A program made the position numbers and the translations under genes. Shown here piece after piece: positions 32,648 to 44,977 of a DNA stretch of 64,000 bases. Source of the DNA: Ectothiorhodospiraceae bacterium WFHF3C12. Lineage in GTDB: Bacteria > Pseudomonadota > Gammaproteobacteria > Nitrococcales > Nitrococcaceae. Below the pieces are notes generated by a model. That model saw only the letters and a list, made by a program, of their open reading frames with translations, did no database searches and was not told the origin of the DNA. The stretch covers positions 1-64,000 of the forward strand of contig JACDUA010000019.1 of assembly GCA_013519935.1 (NCBI GenBank), written 5' to 3'. The stretch's first letter is position 1. Each line of letters begins with the position of its first letter.

Positions 32648-33739
32648 ATGGCCACTGACCCGAGCCTGTACAACACCAGCTTCTCCAATGCCGGCCTGAC
32701 CCGGCTGAAGGCGGACGTGCAGCAGCCCTCGCGGGATAGCATCCGCGAGGTGGCCAAGCAGTTCGAGTCGCTGTTCGTCCAGACCATGCTCAAGTCCATG
32801 CGGGACGCCAGCTCGGCCATGGGCTCGGACCTGCTTAGCGGCGAGCAGACCAAGCAGTATCGGGCCCTGTTCGACCAGGAGATCGCCTCGCGGATCTCGC
32901 AGGGGCAGGGCATGGGCCTTGCGAGCGCCGTGGAGCGGCAGCTGCTGGAGAACGCGGGTCTCGGCGCCCGGGGCGATAACGCAACCGGCGGACGTTCGTT
33001 GAACGACTACCAGGCAAACGCCGTGCCCCATCGCCCGGTCGCTGAGTCGTCCCGGACGCCTGGGTCGGATGGACTCGCCATCCGGCAAGCCGGCCAGGCC
33101 GACCGCGCCGCCGTCCTGGCCCGCACCGGCAAAGCGGAGGCTCCCGAAACCCGGAGGTCGGATGCTCTCGGCATCCGACAACCCGGCGAAACGCAATCCG
33201 CCTCCTCGGTTCGCGGCGGCAAAGGCCCACTCTGGGATTCCCCCGAGGCCTTCGCCCGCGACGTCTGGCCCATGGCCGAGCGCGTGGGCCGCAAGCTGGA
33301 CGTGGCGCCCGAGGCCATTGTGGCCCAGGCCGCGCTGGAGACCGGTTGGGGGCAGCATGTCATCCGCGACGGGGCCGGTCAGAGCAGCCACAACCTCTTC
33401 AACATCAAGGCCCACGGCGGCTGGCGTGGGGACGCGGTTGAAGTGCCGACCATGGAATACGGCCCGGGCGGCGCGCGTCGCGAGGTTGCCGCCTTCCGGT
33501 CCTATCCGTCCCTGGAGGCGGCGTTCGATGACTACGCCCGGTTCCTGCAGGACAACCCGCGCTACCGCAACGCCCTGGAGGCCGGCGGCGACGGGGATGC
33601 CTTCGTGCGCGAGCTGCAGGAAGCCGGCTACGCCACCGATCCGCGCTATGCGGACAAGCTCCAGCGCATCATGCGCAGCGAACCGCTGACCACGGCCCAG
33701 GCCGGATTCAAGTTTAGCGGCGAACGGACGACAACCTGA
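32648..33739 (+). CDS. flgJ: Rod cap / peptidoglycan hydrolase FlgJ with REP-derived linker
   Basis: The 363-residue protein has the rod-binding domain at about 25-105 (VAKQFESLFVQTMLKSMRDASSAMGSDLLSGEQTKQYRALFDQEIASRI) and a glucosaminidase domain from about 200 to 350, with the catalytic Glu likely in AALETGWGQHVI. It caps the rod and opens a hole in the cell wall. The linker (about 110-200) contains two in-frame REP hairpins encoding SDGLAIR and SDALGIR. No good ribosome site precedes ATG 32648. Confidence 0.95.
   Translation: MATDPSLYNTSFSNAGLTRLKADVQQPSRDSIREVAKQFESLFVQTMLKSMRDASSAMGSDLLSGEQTKQYRALFDQEIASRISQGQGMGLASAVERQLLENAGLGARGDNATGGRSLNDYQANAVPHRPVAESSRTPGSDGLAIRQAGQADRAAVLARTGKAEAPETRRSDALGIRQPGETQSASSVRGGKGPLWDSPEAFARDVWPMAERVGRKLDVAPEAIVAQAALETGWGQHVIRDGAGQSSHNLFNIKAHGGWRGDAVEVPTMEYGPGGARREVAAFRSYPSLEAAFDDYARFLQDNPRYRNALEAGGDGDAFVRELQEAGYATDPRYADKLQRIMRSEPLTTAQAGFKFSGERTTT
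33064..33179. repeat. Two REP hairpins inside the flgJ coding region
   Basis: GTCGGATGG-ACTCG-CCATCCGGC (33064-33086) and GTCGGATGC-TCTCG-GCATCCGAC (33157-33179) are REP-type palindromes like those between genes elsewhere in the window. They lie 93 bp apart, a multiple of three, and keep the frame open. Confidence 0.8.
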
Positions 33740-35751: not shown

Positions 35752-36960
35752 ATGCGCGTATCCACGTCACTTTTTCAGGACCTCGCGACCAACCGGATCC
35801 TGGACCAGCAGGCCCGGCTGTCGGACATCCAGCAGCAGCTGTCCACGGGCCGTCGCATCCTCAACCCGTCGGACGACCCGGCGGGCTCCGCCCGCGCGCT
35901 GGATCTCGCCAAGTCCATCGACACCATCGAGAGCTACAACCGCAACGCCGACTTCGCCGAGTCGCGGATGAACGTGGAGGAATCCGCGCTCACCGAGGTG
36001 GGCAACGTCATCAACCGCATCCGCGAGCTGGCGGTGCAGGCGAACAACGCCAGCGCGACGGCCGACGACCGCCAGAAAATCGGCGCGGAGGTGCGCGAGC
36101 GCCTGGATCAGCTCGTGGCCCTGGCCAACAGCACCGACGGCAATGGCGAGTATCTGTTCGCGGGCCTGAGCTCGCGCAACGAGCCCTTCGTCCGGCGCAA
36201 CGGCGAGTACGCGTACGAAGGCGACCAGGGCACCCGCCATGTTCAGGTCGGCCCCAACCGGCAGATCGAGACGACCCACTCGGGCTACGAGGTGTTTCTC
36301 AAGGTGCCGGACGGCAGCAACGGCTACGTCTCCGAGGCCGGTAACGGCAACACCGGCACGGGCATCGTCTCCGCCGTCAACGTGGCCGACGCCAGTATCG
36401 CCAACGATCCCGTCTACGACATCAGCTTCTCGGAGACACCGGGCGGCGCCATGGAGTACACCATCACCGACGGCTCGGGCGGCACCGTGGCGGCGAACGT
36501 CGCCTATCAGGAGGGTGAGCCCATTGCCTTCGATGGCCTGGAGATCTCCATCGAAGGACAACCGGAGGACGGTGACAGCTTCACCGTGGATCGCGCCGGC
36601 ACCACGTCGCTGTTCCAGGCCGTCCAGCGCTTCACCGAGGCCCTGGAATCCGCCCGTCCCGGCACTGACGGTGCCGCCGATTTCATCAATACCGGCAACC
36701 GGACGCTGGAGGTCCTGGACAACGCCACGGAGCACCTGCTCGGCATCCGCGCCGAGCTCGGCGGCCGGCTGAACCGCCTGGACCAGGAGCGCGACGCCAA
36801 CGACGCGGCCGTGCTGGAGCTCAAGACCACCAAGAGCGGCATCGAGGATCTGGACTACGCCAAGGCGGTGTCCGACCTTAATCTGAGCCTGACCGGCCTC
36901 CGGGCCGCCCAGCAGAGCTATACGAAAATTCAGGGGCTTAGCCTGTTCAACTATTTGTAG
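35752..36960 (+). CDS. flgL: Hook-associated protein 3 FlgL
   Basis: The 402-residue flagellin-like protein starts MRVSTSLFQDLATNRILDQQARLSDIQQQLSTGRRILNPSDDPAGSARALDL and ends LRAAQQSYTKIQGLSLFNYL, typical of FlgL. It forms the second hook-filament junction ring. It begins 4 bases after the flgK stop and is chaperoned by FlgN. Surface-exposed central part (about 150-290) is acidic. Confidence 0.96.
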   Translation: MRVSTSLFQDLATNRILDQQARLSDIQQQLSTGRRILNPSDDPAGSARALDLAKSIDTIESYNRNADFAESRMNVEESALTEVGNVINRIRELAVQANNASATADDRQKIGAEVRERLDQLVALANSTDGNGEYLFAGLSSRNEPFVRRNGEYAYEGDQGTRHVQVGPNRQIETTHSGYEVFLKVPDGSNGYVSEAGNGNTGTGIVSAVNVADASIANDPVYDISFSETPGGAMEYTITDGSGGTVAANVAYQEGEPIAFDGLEISIEGQPEDGDSFTVDRAGTTSLFQAVQRFTEALESARPGTDGAADFINTGNRTLEVLDNATEHLLGIRAELGGRLNRLDQERDANDAAVLELKTTKSGIEDLDYAKAVSDLNLSLTGLRAAQQSYTKIQGLSLFNYL

Positions 36961-37012
36961 GTTTCGGTGGTGAGTCGGGTTAGTGACTGAGGAACATCTC
37001 AAGGAGAGTGCC

Positions 37013-38737
37013 ATGGGGCAAGTCGCCATTGACGACAAGAAGCGTATCGAAACGCTTTGGCGGGAGGGGCAGGCGGCCTTCCAGGCCGGTGATCTGGAGA
37101 CCGCTACCAGTCGATTCCAGGCATTGACCCAGGTTGATCCGAACAACGCGGATGCGCTCCACCGGCTGGGACAGATCGCGTACTTCCGGAATCAGTACCC
37201 GCTTGCGCTGAGATTGGTTACGGAGGCACTCAAACGCCGCAACCATTTCCCAGTGGCATTGAACACGCTTGGTGGCGTGTTGATGAAGATGAAGGAATGG
37301 GACGCGGCCAGAGATACGCTCAAGGGTGCACTCCGACAGCGGCCGCGGGATGCCAGCGCACTCTCGAATCTGGGAACGGTTTATCTGGAGACCGGCGATC
37401 TCGAAAAGGCCGAGAAGTACCTTCGTCGTGCGTTGGATGTGAGGCCGACCCACGCGATTGCCTGGAATAACCTGGGCAATGTTTTTCGCAATCGTGAGCA
37501 GTGGTCGACCGCGCAGGCGTATTACCAGAAGGCGCTGTCCCAGGACGCCAACTATCAGGATGCCTTGCGCAACCTGGGTAACGTGTGCACGAAGCTGGGC
37601 GAGCTGGACCGTGCTGTCGAGTACTACCATCGTGCGCTGGACCTGGATCCGCTGGGTGTGGACTCTCTCACCGGGTTGGCCTCCGCGAAAAAGTTCACGG
37701 CAGAGGATCCGGATCTTCAGCGGTTCCGGGTAGCTGCAGAGGATGCAGGGAACTGGAGCCGCAATCAGCGTATCGGTTTCTTCTTCGCGTGGGGCAAGGC
37801 GCTGGATGACGCCAAATGCTTCGACGATGCCTATGTGTGTTTCGAAAACGGTAACCGGCAGCGCGCCGAGGAGCGTCCCTACGACGCACGCGCTTTCCAC
37901 GCCTTTGTCGACGAAATTCAGAGCACCTTCCCGGAGGAGCGCATCGAGCGCCTCCAGGCGGCTGGTAGTCTGGATGAGTCGCCTGTTTTCATCCTCGGAA
38001 TGCCACGGTCCGGTACTACGCTTACCGAACAGATCCTCGCCAGCCATCCTCAAGTGTTGGGCGCAGGGGAGCTTACAGCCTGGAAAGAGACCATGGACGG
38101 GCTTCTTGGCGGCGAGCTCGTCGACCACTATGGCTCATGGCTTCGCGAACTGGACGAGACGCAGCTGCGACGAGCCGCGGAAGGTTACCTGACGCATCGG
38201 CCCGACGCGCAGGGAGCCGTCCGCGTCACCGACAAGATGCCGGGGAATTTCATTCACCTCGGACTCATCCGTCTGGCATTCCCGAAGGCGCGCATCATTC
38301 ACTGTGTACGTAATCCCGTGGACGTGTGTCTTTCCTGTTTCCAGAAGGATTTCAGCCAGGGGCAGAACTTCAGCTACGGACAGGAGTGGCTGGGTAGCCG
38401 GTTCAGTGAGTATGCACGGTTGATGGAATACTGGCGGACGGTCTTCCCGGGCCAGTGGCTCGATGTGCCCTACGAACAGGTTGTCAGCGATCCTGAATAT
38501 TGGGCACGCCGTATCGTCGATTTCGCCGGGCTGCCCTGGGACGATGCGTGCATAGACTTTCATCGCGCCGAGCGCGCGGTTCATACGGCGAGCGTTTGGC
38601 AGGTCCGCCAGCCCGTGTACAAATCGGCGGTGGAGCGCTGGCGCCGCTATGAGTCACATCTTGAGCCGCTGCTGCGTACGCTCGGCGAGTATCGTGACTG
38701 GCACCTCCGGTTTACCGAGAGTACCCCTCAAACCTGA
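37013..38737 (+). CDS. TPR-repeat sulfotransferase
   Basis: The 574-residue protein has an N-terminal half of tetratricopeptide repeats (about residues 10-215; for example ALSNLGTVYLETGDLEKAEKYLRRALDVRP). The C-terminal half is a sulfotransferase domain with the PAPS 5'-phosphosulfate loop ILGMPRSGTTLTEQIL near residue 329 and a 3'-phosphate region around HCVRNPVDVCLSCF. Acceptor specificity is unknown; tyrosylprotein or sugar sulfation are possibilities. ATG 37013 follows AAGGAG, preferred over an in-frame GTG at 36983. Codon third positions are less GC-rich than neighbouring genes, suggesting acquisition. It sits between flgL and fliC, as glycosylation genes do in other species. Confidence 0.82.
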   Translation: MGQVAIDDKKRIETLWREGQAAFQAGDLETATSRFQALTQVDPNNADALHRLGQIAYFRNQYPLALRLVTEALKRRNHFPVALNTLGGVLMKMKEWDAARDTLKGALRQRPRDASALSNLGTVYLETGDLEKAEKYLRRALDVRPTHAIAWNNLGNVFRNREQWSTAQAYYQKALSQDANYQDALRNLGNVCTKLGELDRAVEYYHRALDLDPLGVDSLTGLASAKKFTAEDPDLQRFRVAAEDAGNWSRNQRIGFFFAWGKALDDAKCFDDAYVCFENGNRQRAEERPYDARAFHAFVDEIQSTFPEERIERLQAAGSLDESPVFILGMPRSGTTLTEQILASHPQVLGAGELTAWKETMDGLLGGELVDHYGSWLRELDETQLRRAAEGYLTHRPDAQGAVRVTDKMPGNFIHLGLIRLAFPKARIIHCVRNPVDVCLSCFQKDFSQGQNFSYGQEWLGSRFSEYARLMEYWRTVFPGQWLDVPYEQVVSDPEYWARRIVDFAGLPWDDACIDFHRAERAVHTASVWQVRQPVYKSAVERWRRYESHLEPLLRTLGEYRDWHLRFTESTPQT

Positions 38738-38849: not shown

Positions 38850-38876
38850 TAAAGTTCCCCGAGACGAGGCCGCTAA
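38850..38876 (+). promoter_or_regulatory. Sigma-28 promoter of fliC
   Basis: TAAA (38850-38853), 15 bp, GCCGCTAA (38869-38876) matches the FliA consensus with one mismatch. The fliC ATG lies 75 bases downstream, after a GAGGAGT ribosome site. Confidence 0.93.
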
Positions 38877-38950: not shown

Positions 38951-40342
38951 ATGCCTCAGGTAATTAACACCAACATCGCTTCGCTTAACGCGCAGCGGAA
39001 TCTGAACCGGTCCCAGGACCAGTTGCAGACGTCGCTGGAGCGCCTGTCGACGGGTCTTCGCATCAACAGCGCGAAGGACGACGCGGCTGGCCTGGCTATC
39101 TCCGAGCGGTTCACGTCCCAGATCAAGGGCCTGGAGCAGGCGACCCGGAATGCCAACGACGGCATCTCCTTCGCGCAGACTGCCGAAGGCGCGCTGGGCG
39201 AGATCGGCAACGCCCTGCAGCGTATCCGTGAGCTGTCCGTTCAGTCGGCCAACGACACCAATTCCGCGTCCGACCGCGAGGCCCTGAACAACGAGGTATC
39301 CGCCCTGGTTTCGGAGGTCAACCGGATCGCTCAGTCCACGCAGTTCAACGGGCAGAACGTTCTGGACGGCTCGCTGGAGGATCTGGTGTTCCAGGTCGGC
39401 GCCAACCGTAACCAGACCATCTCCGTCGACGGCGTTGATGCACGCGGTGCTGAGCTGGGCGCGGCGTTCGACACCGGTGACGCCGTTACGGCTTCCGGCG
39501 TGGCGAGCATTACCGGTAGCGGCGCGCTGACGATCAATGGCGTGGGTGTCGACATCAGCGATGCCGCTTCCCTGACTGATTCCGCGAATGTGGATTCCAG
39601 CACGATCAGCGGCATCGTCTCGGCGATTAACGCGAAGTCGGCTGACACCGGCGTAACGGCCACCCAGGCCTCGACGACCGAGACCACCATTTCGAGCCTG
39701 GCGACGGGCACCACGGACGTGACCATCAATGGCGTGACCGTCTCCTTTGATTCAACATCCAGTGCCGACGCGACAGCGATTGCGGACCGCCTGAATGAGT
39801 TCTCGTCGCAGACTGGTGTTTCAGCCTCTGCCGACGGCACCGGTACTCTGGTTCTCACCGAGGGCAACGGCGGGTCCATCGACGTCTCTTCGGATGGGGG
39901 CGGCATTATCGGGGGTGCCGAGGAGTATTTCGCCGGCATCGAACTGGCAACGGACGTGGGTGAAAGCATCAATGTCGCCGGTGGTGATGCTGGTGCGCTC
40001 GGCCTGGGCTCGATCACGGCTACCGACTCGGCACTCAACGGCGTGAGCGTGCAAACCCGCGAGGATGCGACCGCGACCCTGCGCACGGTTGACTTCGCCC
40101 TCGATCAGGTCAACGGCCTGCGGGCGGAGCTCGGTGCGGTGCAGAGCCGTTTCGAGTCCACCATCGCCAACCTGAGCACCACCTCCGAGAACCTCTCCGC
40201 TGCACGTTCCCGGATCCGTGATGCCGACTTCGCTGCCGAGACTGCCAGCCTGACGAAGGCCCAGATCCTGCAGCAGGCCGGTACCTCGGTGCTCTCTCAG
40301 GCCAACTCCATCCCGCAGAACGTGCTCTCGCTGCTCCAGTAA
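38951..40342 (+). CDS. fliC: Flagellin FliC
   Basis: The 463-residue filament subunit has conserved N-terminal (MPQVINTNIASLNAQRNLNRSQDQLQTSLERLSTGLRINSAKDDAAGLAI) and C-terminal (FAAETASLTKAQILQQAGTSVLSQANSIPQNVLSLLQ) coiled-coil regions. The central 180-320 part has two flagellin-IN-like modules (ALTINGVGVDISD, TDVTINGVTVSF). It has no Cys and only acidic surface loops, as expected for flagellin in salty media. A sigma-28 promoter and a CRP box lie upstream. Confidence 0.98.
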   Translation: MPQVINTNIASLNAQRNLNRSQDQLQTSLERLSTGLRINSAKDDAAGLAISERFTSQIKGLEQATRNANDGISFAQTAEGALGEIGNALQRIRELSVQSANDTNSASDREALNNEVSALVSEVNRIAQSTQFNGQNVLDGSLEDLVFQVGANRNQTISVDGVDARGAELGAAFDTGDAVTASGVASITGSGALTINGVGVDISDAASLTDSANVDSSTISGIVSAINAKSADTGVTATQASTTETTISSLATGTTDVTINGVTVSFDSTSSADATAIADRLNEFSSQTGVSASADGTGTLVLTEGNGGSIDVSSDGGGIIGGAEEYFAGIELATDVGESINVAGGDAGALGLGSITATDSALNGVSVQTREDATATLRTVDFALDQVNGLRAELGAVQSRFESTIANLSTTSENLSAARSRIRDADFAAETASLTKAQILQQAGTSVLSQANSIPQNVLSLLQ

Positions 40343-43721: not shown

Positions 43722-44121
43722 GGAGGTCGGATGGCGAGCCCATCCGACCTCCGGAAGGACCACCACGTAGGTCGGCATCGCGCGCCAGCGCGACGCCGAC
43801 ATTCCGCCGTAGGTTGAAATGTCGGACGGCAAGCCCGTCCGACCTACGGCATATACCGCCTCCGTCATCATCGCCCCAACGGTCGTGCCGAGGATCCCGA
43901 CGAGGGCGGAAACGTCGGATGGTAAGCCCATCCGACCTTGTATGTTTTCGGGTTGAGGGTTCGCGCGGGCACGATGGAGCGGGAGCCCCGTAAGTCGGCA
44001 TCGCGCGCCAGCGCGACGCCGACGAAGCAGTCGATCATCGGCGCGAAATGTCGGACGGCAAGTCCGTCCGACCTACGGTATAGAAAGCGTAGGTCGGCAT
44101 CGCCCAAAGGGCGACGCCGAC
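43722..44121. repeat. Cluster of REP hairpins upstream (left) of the RAYT gene
   Basis: Elements at 43722-43752 (GGTCGGATGG palindrome), 43767-43847 (REP pair), 43914-43938 (GTCGGATGG/CCATCCGAC), 43990-44076 (REP pair) and 44089-44121 (single GTAG-headed hairpin). Heads are GTAGGTCGGC and tails CCGACCTAC; cores alternate between GTCGGACGGCAAG and GGCATCGCGCGCCAGCGCGACGCC types. No gene is seen in 43692-44164. Confidence 0.85.
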
Positions 44122-44164
44122 AACCCACGGGTCAGCGCTGACGCATACCATGAACCGGGGACCA

Positions 44165-44659
44165 TCACTCCCGCCCGACGGTTGCCGGCAAAGGCGGTTC
44201 GGATCGCCCCCAATCGGCCGGATAGACCCCCTCCGCCACAAACCGGTGAAAGCTCGAATACGGCCATTCTCCTGGCATCGCCGCCAACCCGTGCTTTACC
44301 GGGTTGTAATGGACGTAATCCACATGAGCGCGCCAATCCGCGTCATCGCGGATCAAGTGCTCCCAGAACCGCCCCTGCCAGATGTGGCCGGCACCGGCGC
44401 GCAGGGTGACGAATCGCTTGATTCGCCGCCACCGGGTGGAGAAGTCCGCGTCGTCCGCTGGCAGGGTCCAGATGCAGTGGAGATGGTCCGGCAGGAGCAC
44501 CACTGCATCCATCGAGAACGGTTGAGTTCGCCGTGTCGCCCGCAATGCCGCGCCAACTAGCGCCCGAACGCGCCCGTTTGTAAGCACGGGCCGTCGCTGG
44601 TGGGTAACCACCGTGAAGAAGTAGCGCGCTCCGGGCGTCCGTGCCCGCCGATATCGCAT
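44165..44659 (-). CDS. REP-associated tyrosine transposase (RAYT)
   Basis: The 164-residue enzyme is a Y1/HUH transposase of the RAYT group. The HUH motif is LPDHLHCIW (about residues 57-65), and the catalytic Tyr lies in VDYVHYNPVKHG (about 113-124). GHIWQGRFWEHLIRDD is a RAYT signature. These enzymes nick and join REP single strands and are single-copy domesticated relatives of IS200/IS605. REP hairpins with GTAG heads lie on both sides within 90 bases, as expected for its substrates. Confidence 0.93.
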   Translation of the reverse strand: MRYRRARTPGARYFFTVVTHQRRPVLTNGRVRALVGAALRATRRTQPFSMDAVVLLPDHLHCIWTLPADDADFSTRWRRIKRFVTLRAGAGHIWQGRFWEHLIRDDADWRAHVDYVHYNPVKHGLAAMPGEWPYSSFHRFVAEGVYPADWGRSEPPLPATVGRE

Positions 44660-44748
44660 GGCCGCTCCTCCATGAGCGTCGATTTATGCGAGGGTCGGTA
44701 GCGTAGCCAACGCCGCGTCGCGTCAGCAACGATGGGGGCACCGCCATT

Positions 44749-44873
44749 GTCGGACGGCAAGCCCATCCGACCTACGCCATATCCCGCGTAGGTCGGCATC
44801 GCCCGAAGGGCGACGCCGACGATGCCGTGGATCATCGGCGTGGAATGTCGGACGGCAAGTCCGTCCGACCTAC
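44749..44873. repeat. REP hairpins on the right side of the RAYT gene
   Basis: A single inverted REP (44749-44775, GTCGGACGGCAAGCCCATCC ending GACCTAC) and a REP pair (44788-44873) have the same heads and cores as those on the left. The remainder of 44660-45158 contains only the fleQ control sites. Confidence 0.85.
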
Positions 44874-44977
44874 GCGTTGAGGGTTCGCGGTGGCCCCATG
44901 GGTTGGGGTGACAACGAACCGGCGCCCATGCCACGACTCGCCGTCACTGACAATCCTTTGACGTTTTTTCAGGACTA

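Follow-up and report, generated by a model that had tools for sequence, protein, structure and literature searches.

The gene at 37013-38737 of a 64,000-nucleotide stretch of Ectothiorhodospiraceae bacterium WFHF3C12 DNA (contig JACDUA010000019.1, positions 1 to 64,000; hereafter, the window) encodes a sulfotransferase with N-terminal tetratricopeptide repeats (TPRs) and lies between the flagellar genes flgL and fliC. The substrate of this TPR-sulfotransferase (ST) is likely to be a flagellar export substrate, and on balance the analysis favors a cytosolic enzyme that uses 3'-phosphoadenosine 5'-phosphosulfate (PAPS) and acts on the flagellin FliC before type III export. We infer the activity, the substrate, the acceptor and the physiological effect. 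A sequence-only reading of the same DNA had proposed a PAPS-type sulfotransferase with TPRs at this position, and domain searches bore this out, with a match to Sulfotransfer_3 (PF13469; E=1.7e-45, 156 bits against a cut-off of 27, residues 324-511) and matches to several Pfam TPR models (1e-20 to 1e-36). The gene, its parts and the two flanking genes are as follows.

37013..38737, + strand, ST gene, an intact open reading frame of 574 amino acids (ATG at 37013, stop codon ending at 38737)
37001-37006, + strand, ribosome site AAGGAG (Shine-Dalgarno), 6 nt ahead of the ATG
37019..37738, + strand, N-terminal TPR superhelix, residues ~3-242 (Pfam TPRs, helix pairs in the AlphaFold2 model)
37982..38722, + strand, sulfotransferase domain, residues 324-570 (Sulfotransfer_3 and PDB profile matches)
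37997..38020, + strand, 5'-phosphosulfate-binding (5'-PSB) PAPS loop GMPRSGTT, residues 329-336 (Arg332), aligned with PRSGTT of the tyrosylprotein sulfotransferases (TPSTs)
38069..38071, + strand, Glu353, the predicted catalytic base, aligned with the GEE motif of TPSTs
38234..38236, + strand, Lys408 (DKMP), aligned with the NKdP lysine of TPSTs
38309..38335, + strand, 3'-phosphate-binding (3'-PB) motif, Arg433 ... Ser441 (R in 42/42 and S in 41/42 homologues)
38591..38614, + strand, S527-x-x-Q-V-x-x-P534, counterpart of the TPST SxxQVxxP(I/V)
35752..36960, + strand, flgL (TIGR02550, 6e-96), ending 52 nt before the ST gene
38951..40342, + strand, fliC, the likely substrate gene (Flagellin_N, 2.3e-49)

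The protein carries both features that define a TPR-sulfotransferase, PF13469 with PAPS motifs and an N-terminal TPR array. The array has six or more repeats, with NLG/NNLG motifs at residues 84, 119, 152 and 187. The AlphaFold2 model, obtained with a 42-sequence input, had a mean predicted local distance difference test score (pLDDT) of 94.0 and a predicted template modelling score (pTM) of 0.90; as modelled, the product is a folded two-domain protein, and a chance open reading frame is ruled out. That it carries a sulfotransferase fold is nearly certain. It is the sole TPR-sulfotransferase of the 4.6 Mb assembly, the remaining matches covering TPRs only.

The domain most closely resembles the TPSTs, which carry out protein sulfation in animals. 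A single-sequence domain search of PDB gave protein-tyrosine sulfotransferases as the best matches (8w5z, 3.4e-11), and with a 15-sequence family profile the seven top matches were all TPSTs (4e-23 to 1e-16), the CurM-type, aryl and heparan sulfotransferases ranking below them. When the whole ST model was submitted to Foldseek, TPR structures dominated, OGT and SPINDLY came next after designed TPRs, and the tick TPST 8w5z appeared at rank 36 with a probability of 1.00. The TPST catalytic residues, Arg of the 5'-PSB loop, the Glu base, Lys and Ser, were matched in the alignment by R332, E353, K408 and S527. Glu353 follows Arg332 by 21 residues, and in the TPST alignment the same distance lies between the loop Arg and the GEE motif's second Glu; the latter residue (Glu99 of TPST2) is the catalytic base of TPST2. 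R332, G334, H345, E353, K408, P410, R433, S527 and P534 were invariant in 42/42 homologues. The genome also encodes an adenosine 5'-phosphosulfate kinase (6.4e-62), so PAPS is available.

The gene had been assigned to the position of flagellin modification genes, and a survey of other genomes supported the assignment: the ST adjoins a flagellin gene in several lineages, and linkage to fliC recurs in G008, G001, G027, G156, the locus L015 and a Paroceanicella plasmid. An absence of such recurrence would have counted against the sequence-only reading, and it was not borne out. The order survey covered 54 genomes, 26 of them with a matched flagellin, and an ST homologue was found in four other genomes, G008 (56% identical), G001, G027 and G039. 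It directly adjoins fliC in the first three and not in G039, where flgL and fliC are adjacent to each other and the ST is located elsewhere. The G001 ST is on the opposite strand; in G027 there was no flgL match upstream of the ST, and fliC is adjacent. No gene separates flgL from fliC in order relatives that lack the ST, such as G034, G024, G033 and G040. A separate observation concerns the order relative G005 (L095 284-8263), where several genes, among them one for a glycosyltransferase and one for a Sulfotransfer_3 protein lacking TPRs (1.7e-22), are located some 2 kb upstream of fliC.

TPR-sulfotransferases were present in 88/370 genomes of the class. By a crude model applied to the 75 STs of 46 flagellated genomes, with the window excluded, about 1.0 ST was expected within 15 kb of a flagellin and five were found (G001, G156, G364, G311 and G101; P=0.003); within 8 kb there were four, against 0.57 expected. 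The unrelated gammaproteobacterium G156 has the order flgK-flgL-ST-fliC-flaG-fliD-fliS on a single strand. At L015, a locus from a metagenome-assembled genome, the ST is divergent and next to flagellin, and on the alphaproteobacterial Paroceanicella plasmid flagellin and ST lie head to head inside a flagellar cluster. Outside the class, ST-flagellin linkage was rare.

In a tree of 46 domains, the window, G008 and G027 formed clade A (support 99/90) and G001, G156 and G364 formed clade B (99/99), these values being rough and the bootstrap not having settled. Both clades contain flagellar members only; G311, G101 and L015 were placed elsewhere. The window and G001 belong to one family and carry STs of different clades in the same flagellin slot which, together with the patchy occurrence, argues for repeated acquisition. 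A search of the orders of G156 and G364 gave no further ST copies. Since relatives without the ST have flgL next to fliC and there are two flagellar clades, the ST is a discrete insert in the flagellin slot and is horizontally mobile. The transfer suggested by the sequence-only reading is therefore supported by distribution and phylogeny.

The base composition on which that suggestion was founded was also confirmed. The GC content and GC at third codon positions (GC3) were 0.600/0.706 for the ST, 0.671/0.898 for flgK, 0.661/0.896 for flgL, 0.636/0.795 for fliC, which is also lower, and 0.651/0.853 for fliD, most window neighbors of the ST having a GC3 of 0.85-0.95. The STs of G008, G001, G027 and G156 have a GC3 of 0.80-0.91, much nearer to their own locus than is the window ST. 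Recent transfer inferred from GC alone was weakened as a candidate explanation, the ST and fliC of G008 sharing their GC3 (0.795 and 0.793). Between the window and G008, the identity is alike for ST, flgK and flgL (about 54-61%), so the ST has been retained since the two diverged.

The flagellin offers one candidate tyrosine.

39917..39937, + strand, AEE-Tyr326-FAG, within the variable domain, holding the sole tyrosine in FliC

The window and G008 flagellins each contain exactly one Tyr, within the conserved AEEYFAGIELA, and the G027 flagellin has VDYDAD. Acidic residues near Tyr are favored by TPSTs (PMC9774471). The single acidic-context Tyr is compatible with tyrosine sulfation and non-discriminating, and a tyrosine is regarded as a possible, if somewhat doubtful, acceptor. 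The model of FliC (pLDDT 77, pTM 0.54) was too weak to judge the exposure of Tyr326.

Several observations weigh against flagellin and its tyrosine as the target. Tyr in acidic surroundings is frequent in flagellins that lack an ST, and the G034 flagellin, also without an ST, has a Tyr at the position equivalent to Tyr326. Flagellins with no Tyr occurred in 6/21 unlinked genomes vs 0/10 linked loci, a difference reaching only about P=0.07 (hand calculation). Acidic-context Tyr is mostly lacking in the autotransporter partners described below, and FlgL and FlgK, with 12 tyrosines each, also adjoin the ST gene. The class linkage statistic ignores phylogeny, and two of its five cases share one family; most TPR-STs are not near flagellins. 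Tyrosine content was rejected as a decisive test because order relatives without the ST carry Tyr, often acid-flanked. Flagellin linkage was likewise rejected as a family-wide rule, the TPR-ST family being widespread in Pseudomonadota and rarely near flagellins.

The ST is probably produced with flgK and flgL, late in flagellar assembly. If FliC is the substrate, PAPS would be bound by loop 329-336 and by Arg433/Ser441 of the 3'-PB motif, and the acceptor would be deprotonated by Glu353. The OGT/SPINDLY-type TPR superhelix may select, hold and present unfolded flagellin ahead of FliS and the type III gate, while the TPST-like C-terminal domain would transfer the sulfate of PAPS to an acceptor within the variable region of flagellin that is exposed at the surface. 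The leading candidate acceptor is Tyr326 (AEEYFAG), and a sugar or Ser/Thr may serve instead. FliS-assisted type III export would come after sulfation, and the outcome would be a more negatively charged filament. There are precedents for modification before export: glycosylation of flagellin by Maf precedes both chaperone binding and export (PMC4065374), and RaxST sulfates a Tyr of RaxX before type I secretion (PMC6637879).

The possibility was considered that sulfate is added to a flagellin-borne glycan and not to the polypeptide. The acceptor leans to glycan on account of the glycosyltransferase partners in G311, where a few bp separate the ST from a TPR-GT41 glycosyltransferase within the flagellin region, and in several autotransporter loci; a GT8 or GT9-like gene is next to the ST in Enterobacter, Kluyvera, Ralstonia and Acidocella. 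Moreover, archaellins of Halobacterium are decorated with sulfated glycans (PMC11980604). However, a search of the genome for Maf (PF01973) gave no match, and there was no glycosyltransferase among the scanned window genes or beside the ST in G008, G001 and G156, though one may lie farther away. The absence of Maf and of a glycosyltransferase among the scanned window genes shifts the acceptor back toward polypeptide. There was also no TPR-GT41 among the TPR matches listed for the genome, and the closest solved domain is a protein sulfotransferase. Sulfation of a glycan is therefore considered unlikely.

The ST might instead act on a hook-associated protein (FlgL, FlgK or FliD) or on several flagellar export substrates, since it begins 52 nt after flgL, is probably co-transcribed with flgKL, and both FlgL and FlgK are rich in tyrosine and contain EY/DY sites. 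This explanation is highly improbable, given that the ST is on the opposite strand in G001, has fliC beside it and no upstream flgL match in G027, and pairs with flagellin in Paroceanicella and L015. It is also conceivable, and judged quite improbable, that the flagellar position is incidental and that a mobile TPR-ST settled in a tolerant spot, where it sulfates lipopolysaccharide, another surface protein or a metabolite. The ST is indeed patchy and mobile, most of its relatives are elsewhere and its GC3 is unlike that of its neighbors, but the same slot recurs in two clades and in distant lineages above expectation, and the gene has been kept since the window-G008 divergence, as the similar ST, flgK and flgL identities indicate.

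The gene order of the locus is flgG-flgH-flgI-flgJ-flgK-flgL-ST-fliC-flaG-fliD-fliS-fliT-fleQ, then fliF, fliG, a flagellar-type ATPase, fliK, fliM and flhB, with flgG to flgK assigned by gene order and homology. The genes flanking the ST through FleQ (FlgL, flagellin, FlaG, FliD, FliS, FliT and FleQ) are all on the + strand. A promoter and a terminator were looked for in the 52-nt flgL-ST gap and neither was found. Two sigma-28-type sites were identified, against a chance expectation in the window of 0.19 matches with up to three mismatches.

38850..38876, + strand, sigma-28-type promoter of fliC, 1 mismatch, downstream of the ST gene and ahead of fliC
33708..33734, + strand, weak sigma-28-like site, 3 mismatches, ahead of flgK, a possible promoter of a flgK-flgL-ST unit

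The simplest reading is probably a flgK-flgL-ST unit with a separately driven fliC.

Sequences resembling repetitive extragenic palindromes (REPs) were observed elsewhere in the locus. The palindrome CGGATGGACTCGCCATCCGGC lies at window 33066-33086 within the flgJ reading frame, and the FlgJ linker contains the translated REP-like palindrome (GSDGLAIRQAG ... RSDALGIRQPG). Six REP-like copies of 28 nt each are present between fliT and fleQ (window 43726-44918), where they flank a REP-associated tyrosine transposase (NF047646, 1.5e-51) at 44165-44659 on the - strand.

The wider TPR-ST family is mostly non-flagellar, and its members often adjoin other exported surface proteins. Plasmid TPR-STs adjoin autotransporters in Pacificitalea, Enterobacter, Kluyvera and Thalassospira, and the Ralstonia TPR-ST has an autotransporter upstream. 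The Comamonas endophytica plasmid L112 (NZ_CP106882.1; 1-14631) has the run cadherin adhesin - TPR-ST - TolC - ABC transporter - HlyD - cysC, judged by its genes an apparent self-contained cluster for export of a sulfated adhesin, with adhesin, type I exporter, sulfotransferase and PAPS synthesis. The plasmid copies of Komagataeibacter and Methylovirgula depart from this neighbor pattern. On the Enterobacter and Kluyvera plasmids (L107, L110) the TPR-ST overlaps a GT8 gene, followed by the autotransporter, an arrangement that could be a sulfated glyco-autotransporter cassette.

The immediate neighbors of the ST at 67 loci (147 genes) were compared with genes four or more positions distant (120 scanned), with gene calls from a home-made gene caller and P values left uncorrected. 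TonB receptors numbered 12 near vs 2 far (P=0.015) and porins 7 vs 2 (P=0.15); combined, they made up 19/147 vs 4/120 (P=0.004). GT41 numbered 4 near vs none far among the families listed, and methyltransferases 11 vs at most 2. The TonB counts were made by Pfam, BLAST with two TonB receptors having recovered none of the divergent ones, and several TonB receptors beside STs were confirmed individually. TPR-methyltransferase fusions directly adjoin TPR-STs at L131 8050-10056 and L149 8016-10331; with TPR-GT41 and the TPR-STs, these look like a common TPR-plus-transferase design. From gene neighborhoods, the common rule looks like a cytosolic sulfotransferase beside an exported surface protein. 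A tentative and rather unlikely extension is that TPR-STs form a widespread mobile bacterial system that would sulfate surface polypeptides destined for export (flagellins, autotransporters, adhesins secreted by type I systems and TonB receptors) while these are still in the cytosol, making it a prokaryotic equivalent of tyrosine sulfation in the Golgi, with the window representing a flagellar branch acting on FliC Tyr326.

Among known systems, TPST1/2 (PDB 3AP1, 5WRI; tick 8W5Z) share with the ST the sulfotransferase fold, PRSGTT loop, Glu spacing, NKdP-type Lys, 3'-PB Arg/Ser and SxxQVxxP. Unlike the ST, they are Golgi membrane enzymes without TPRs, and Tyr specificity is putative for the ST. 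RaxST of Xanthomonas is also a bacterial cytosolic PAPS sulfotransferase beside the gene of an exported polypeptide (PMC6637879), but, compared by description, it has another neighbor and another export route (RaxAB), and the description consulted mentions no TPR domain; the neighbors of the window ST are flagellar, with no RaxX-like peptide or RaxAB exporter beside it. The TPR-GT41 glycosyltransferases (OGT, SPINDLY and bacterial relatives), found beside flagellins and TPR-STs in G311, likewise join a TPR superhelix to a transferase domain, but they transfer sugar from a nucleotide sugar and have a different catalytic fold. Flagellin glycosylation genes (Maf and others) resemble the ST in their flagellin-locus position and in cytosolic modification before export (PMC4065374), whereas Maf-type enzymes add sugar, not sulfate, and Maf is absent from this genome. 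Halobacterium provides a likeness to the proposed product, sulfate on a motility filament (PMC11980604, PMC6591318), although the organism is archaeal, the sulfate is on N-glycans made by other enzymes and the filament is unrelated.

Glycosylation and methylation are known modifications of bacterial flagellins. A literature search, thin on subscription journals, found no report of bacterial flagellin sulfation and none tying TPR-STs to autotransporters. The ST is a new combination of a known enzyme family and a known kind of locus, that of flagellin modification. The neighborhood pattern provides a testable substrate rule for a large annotated family for which the literature search found no assigned substrates. 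The position of the ST, ahead of the flagellin gene both in this genome and in several remote bacteria, suggests that flagella are sulfated in some bacteria prior to subunit export. If so, the filament would gain charge, with possible effects on salt tolerance, phage attachment or immune recognition.
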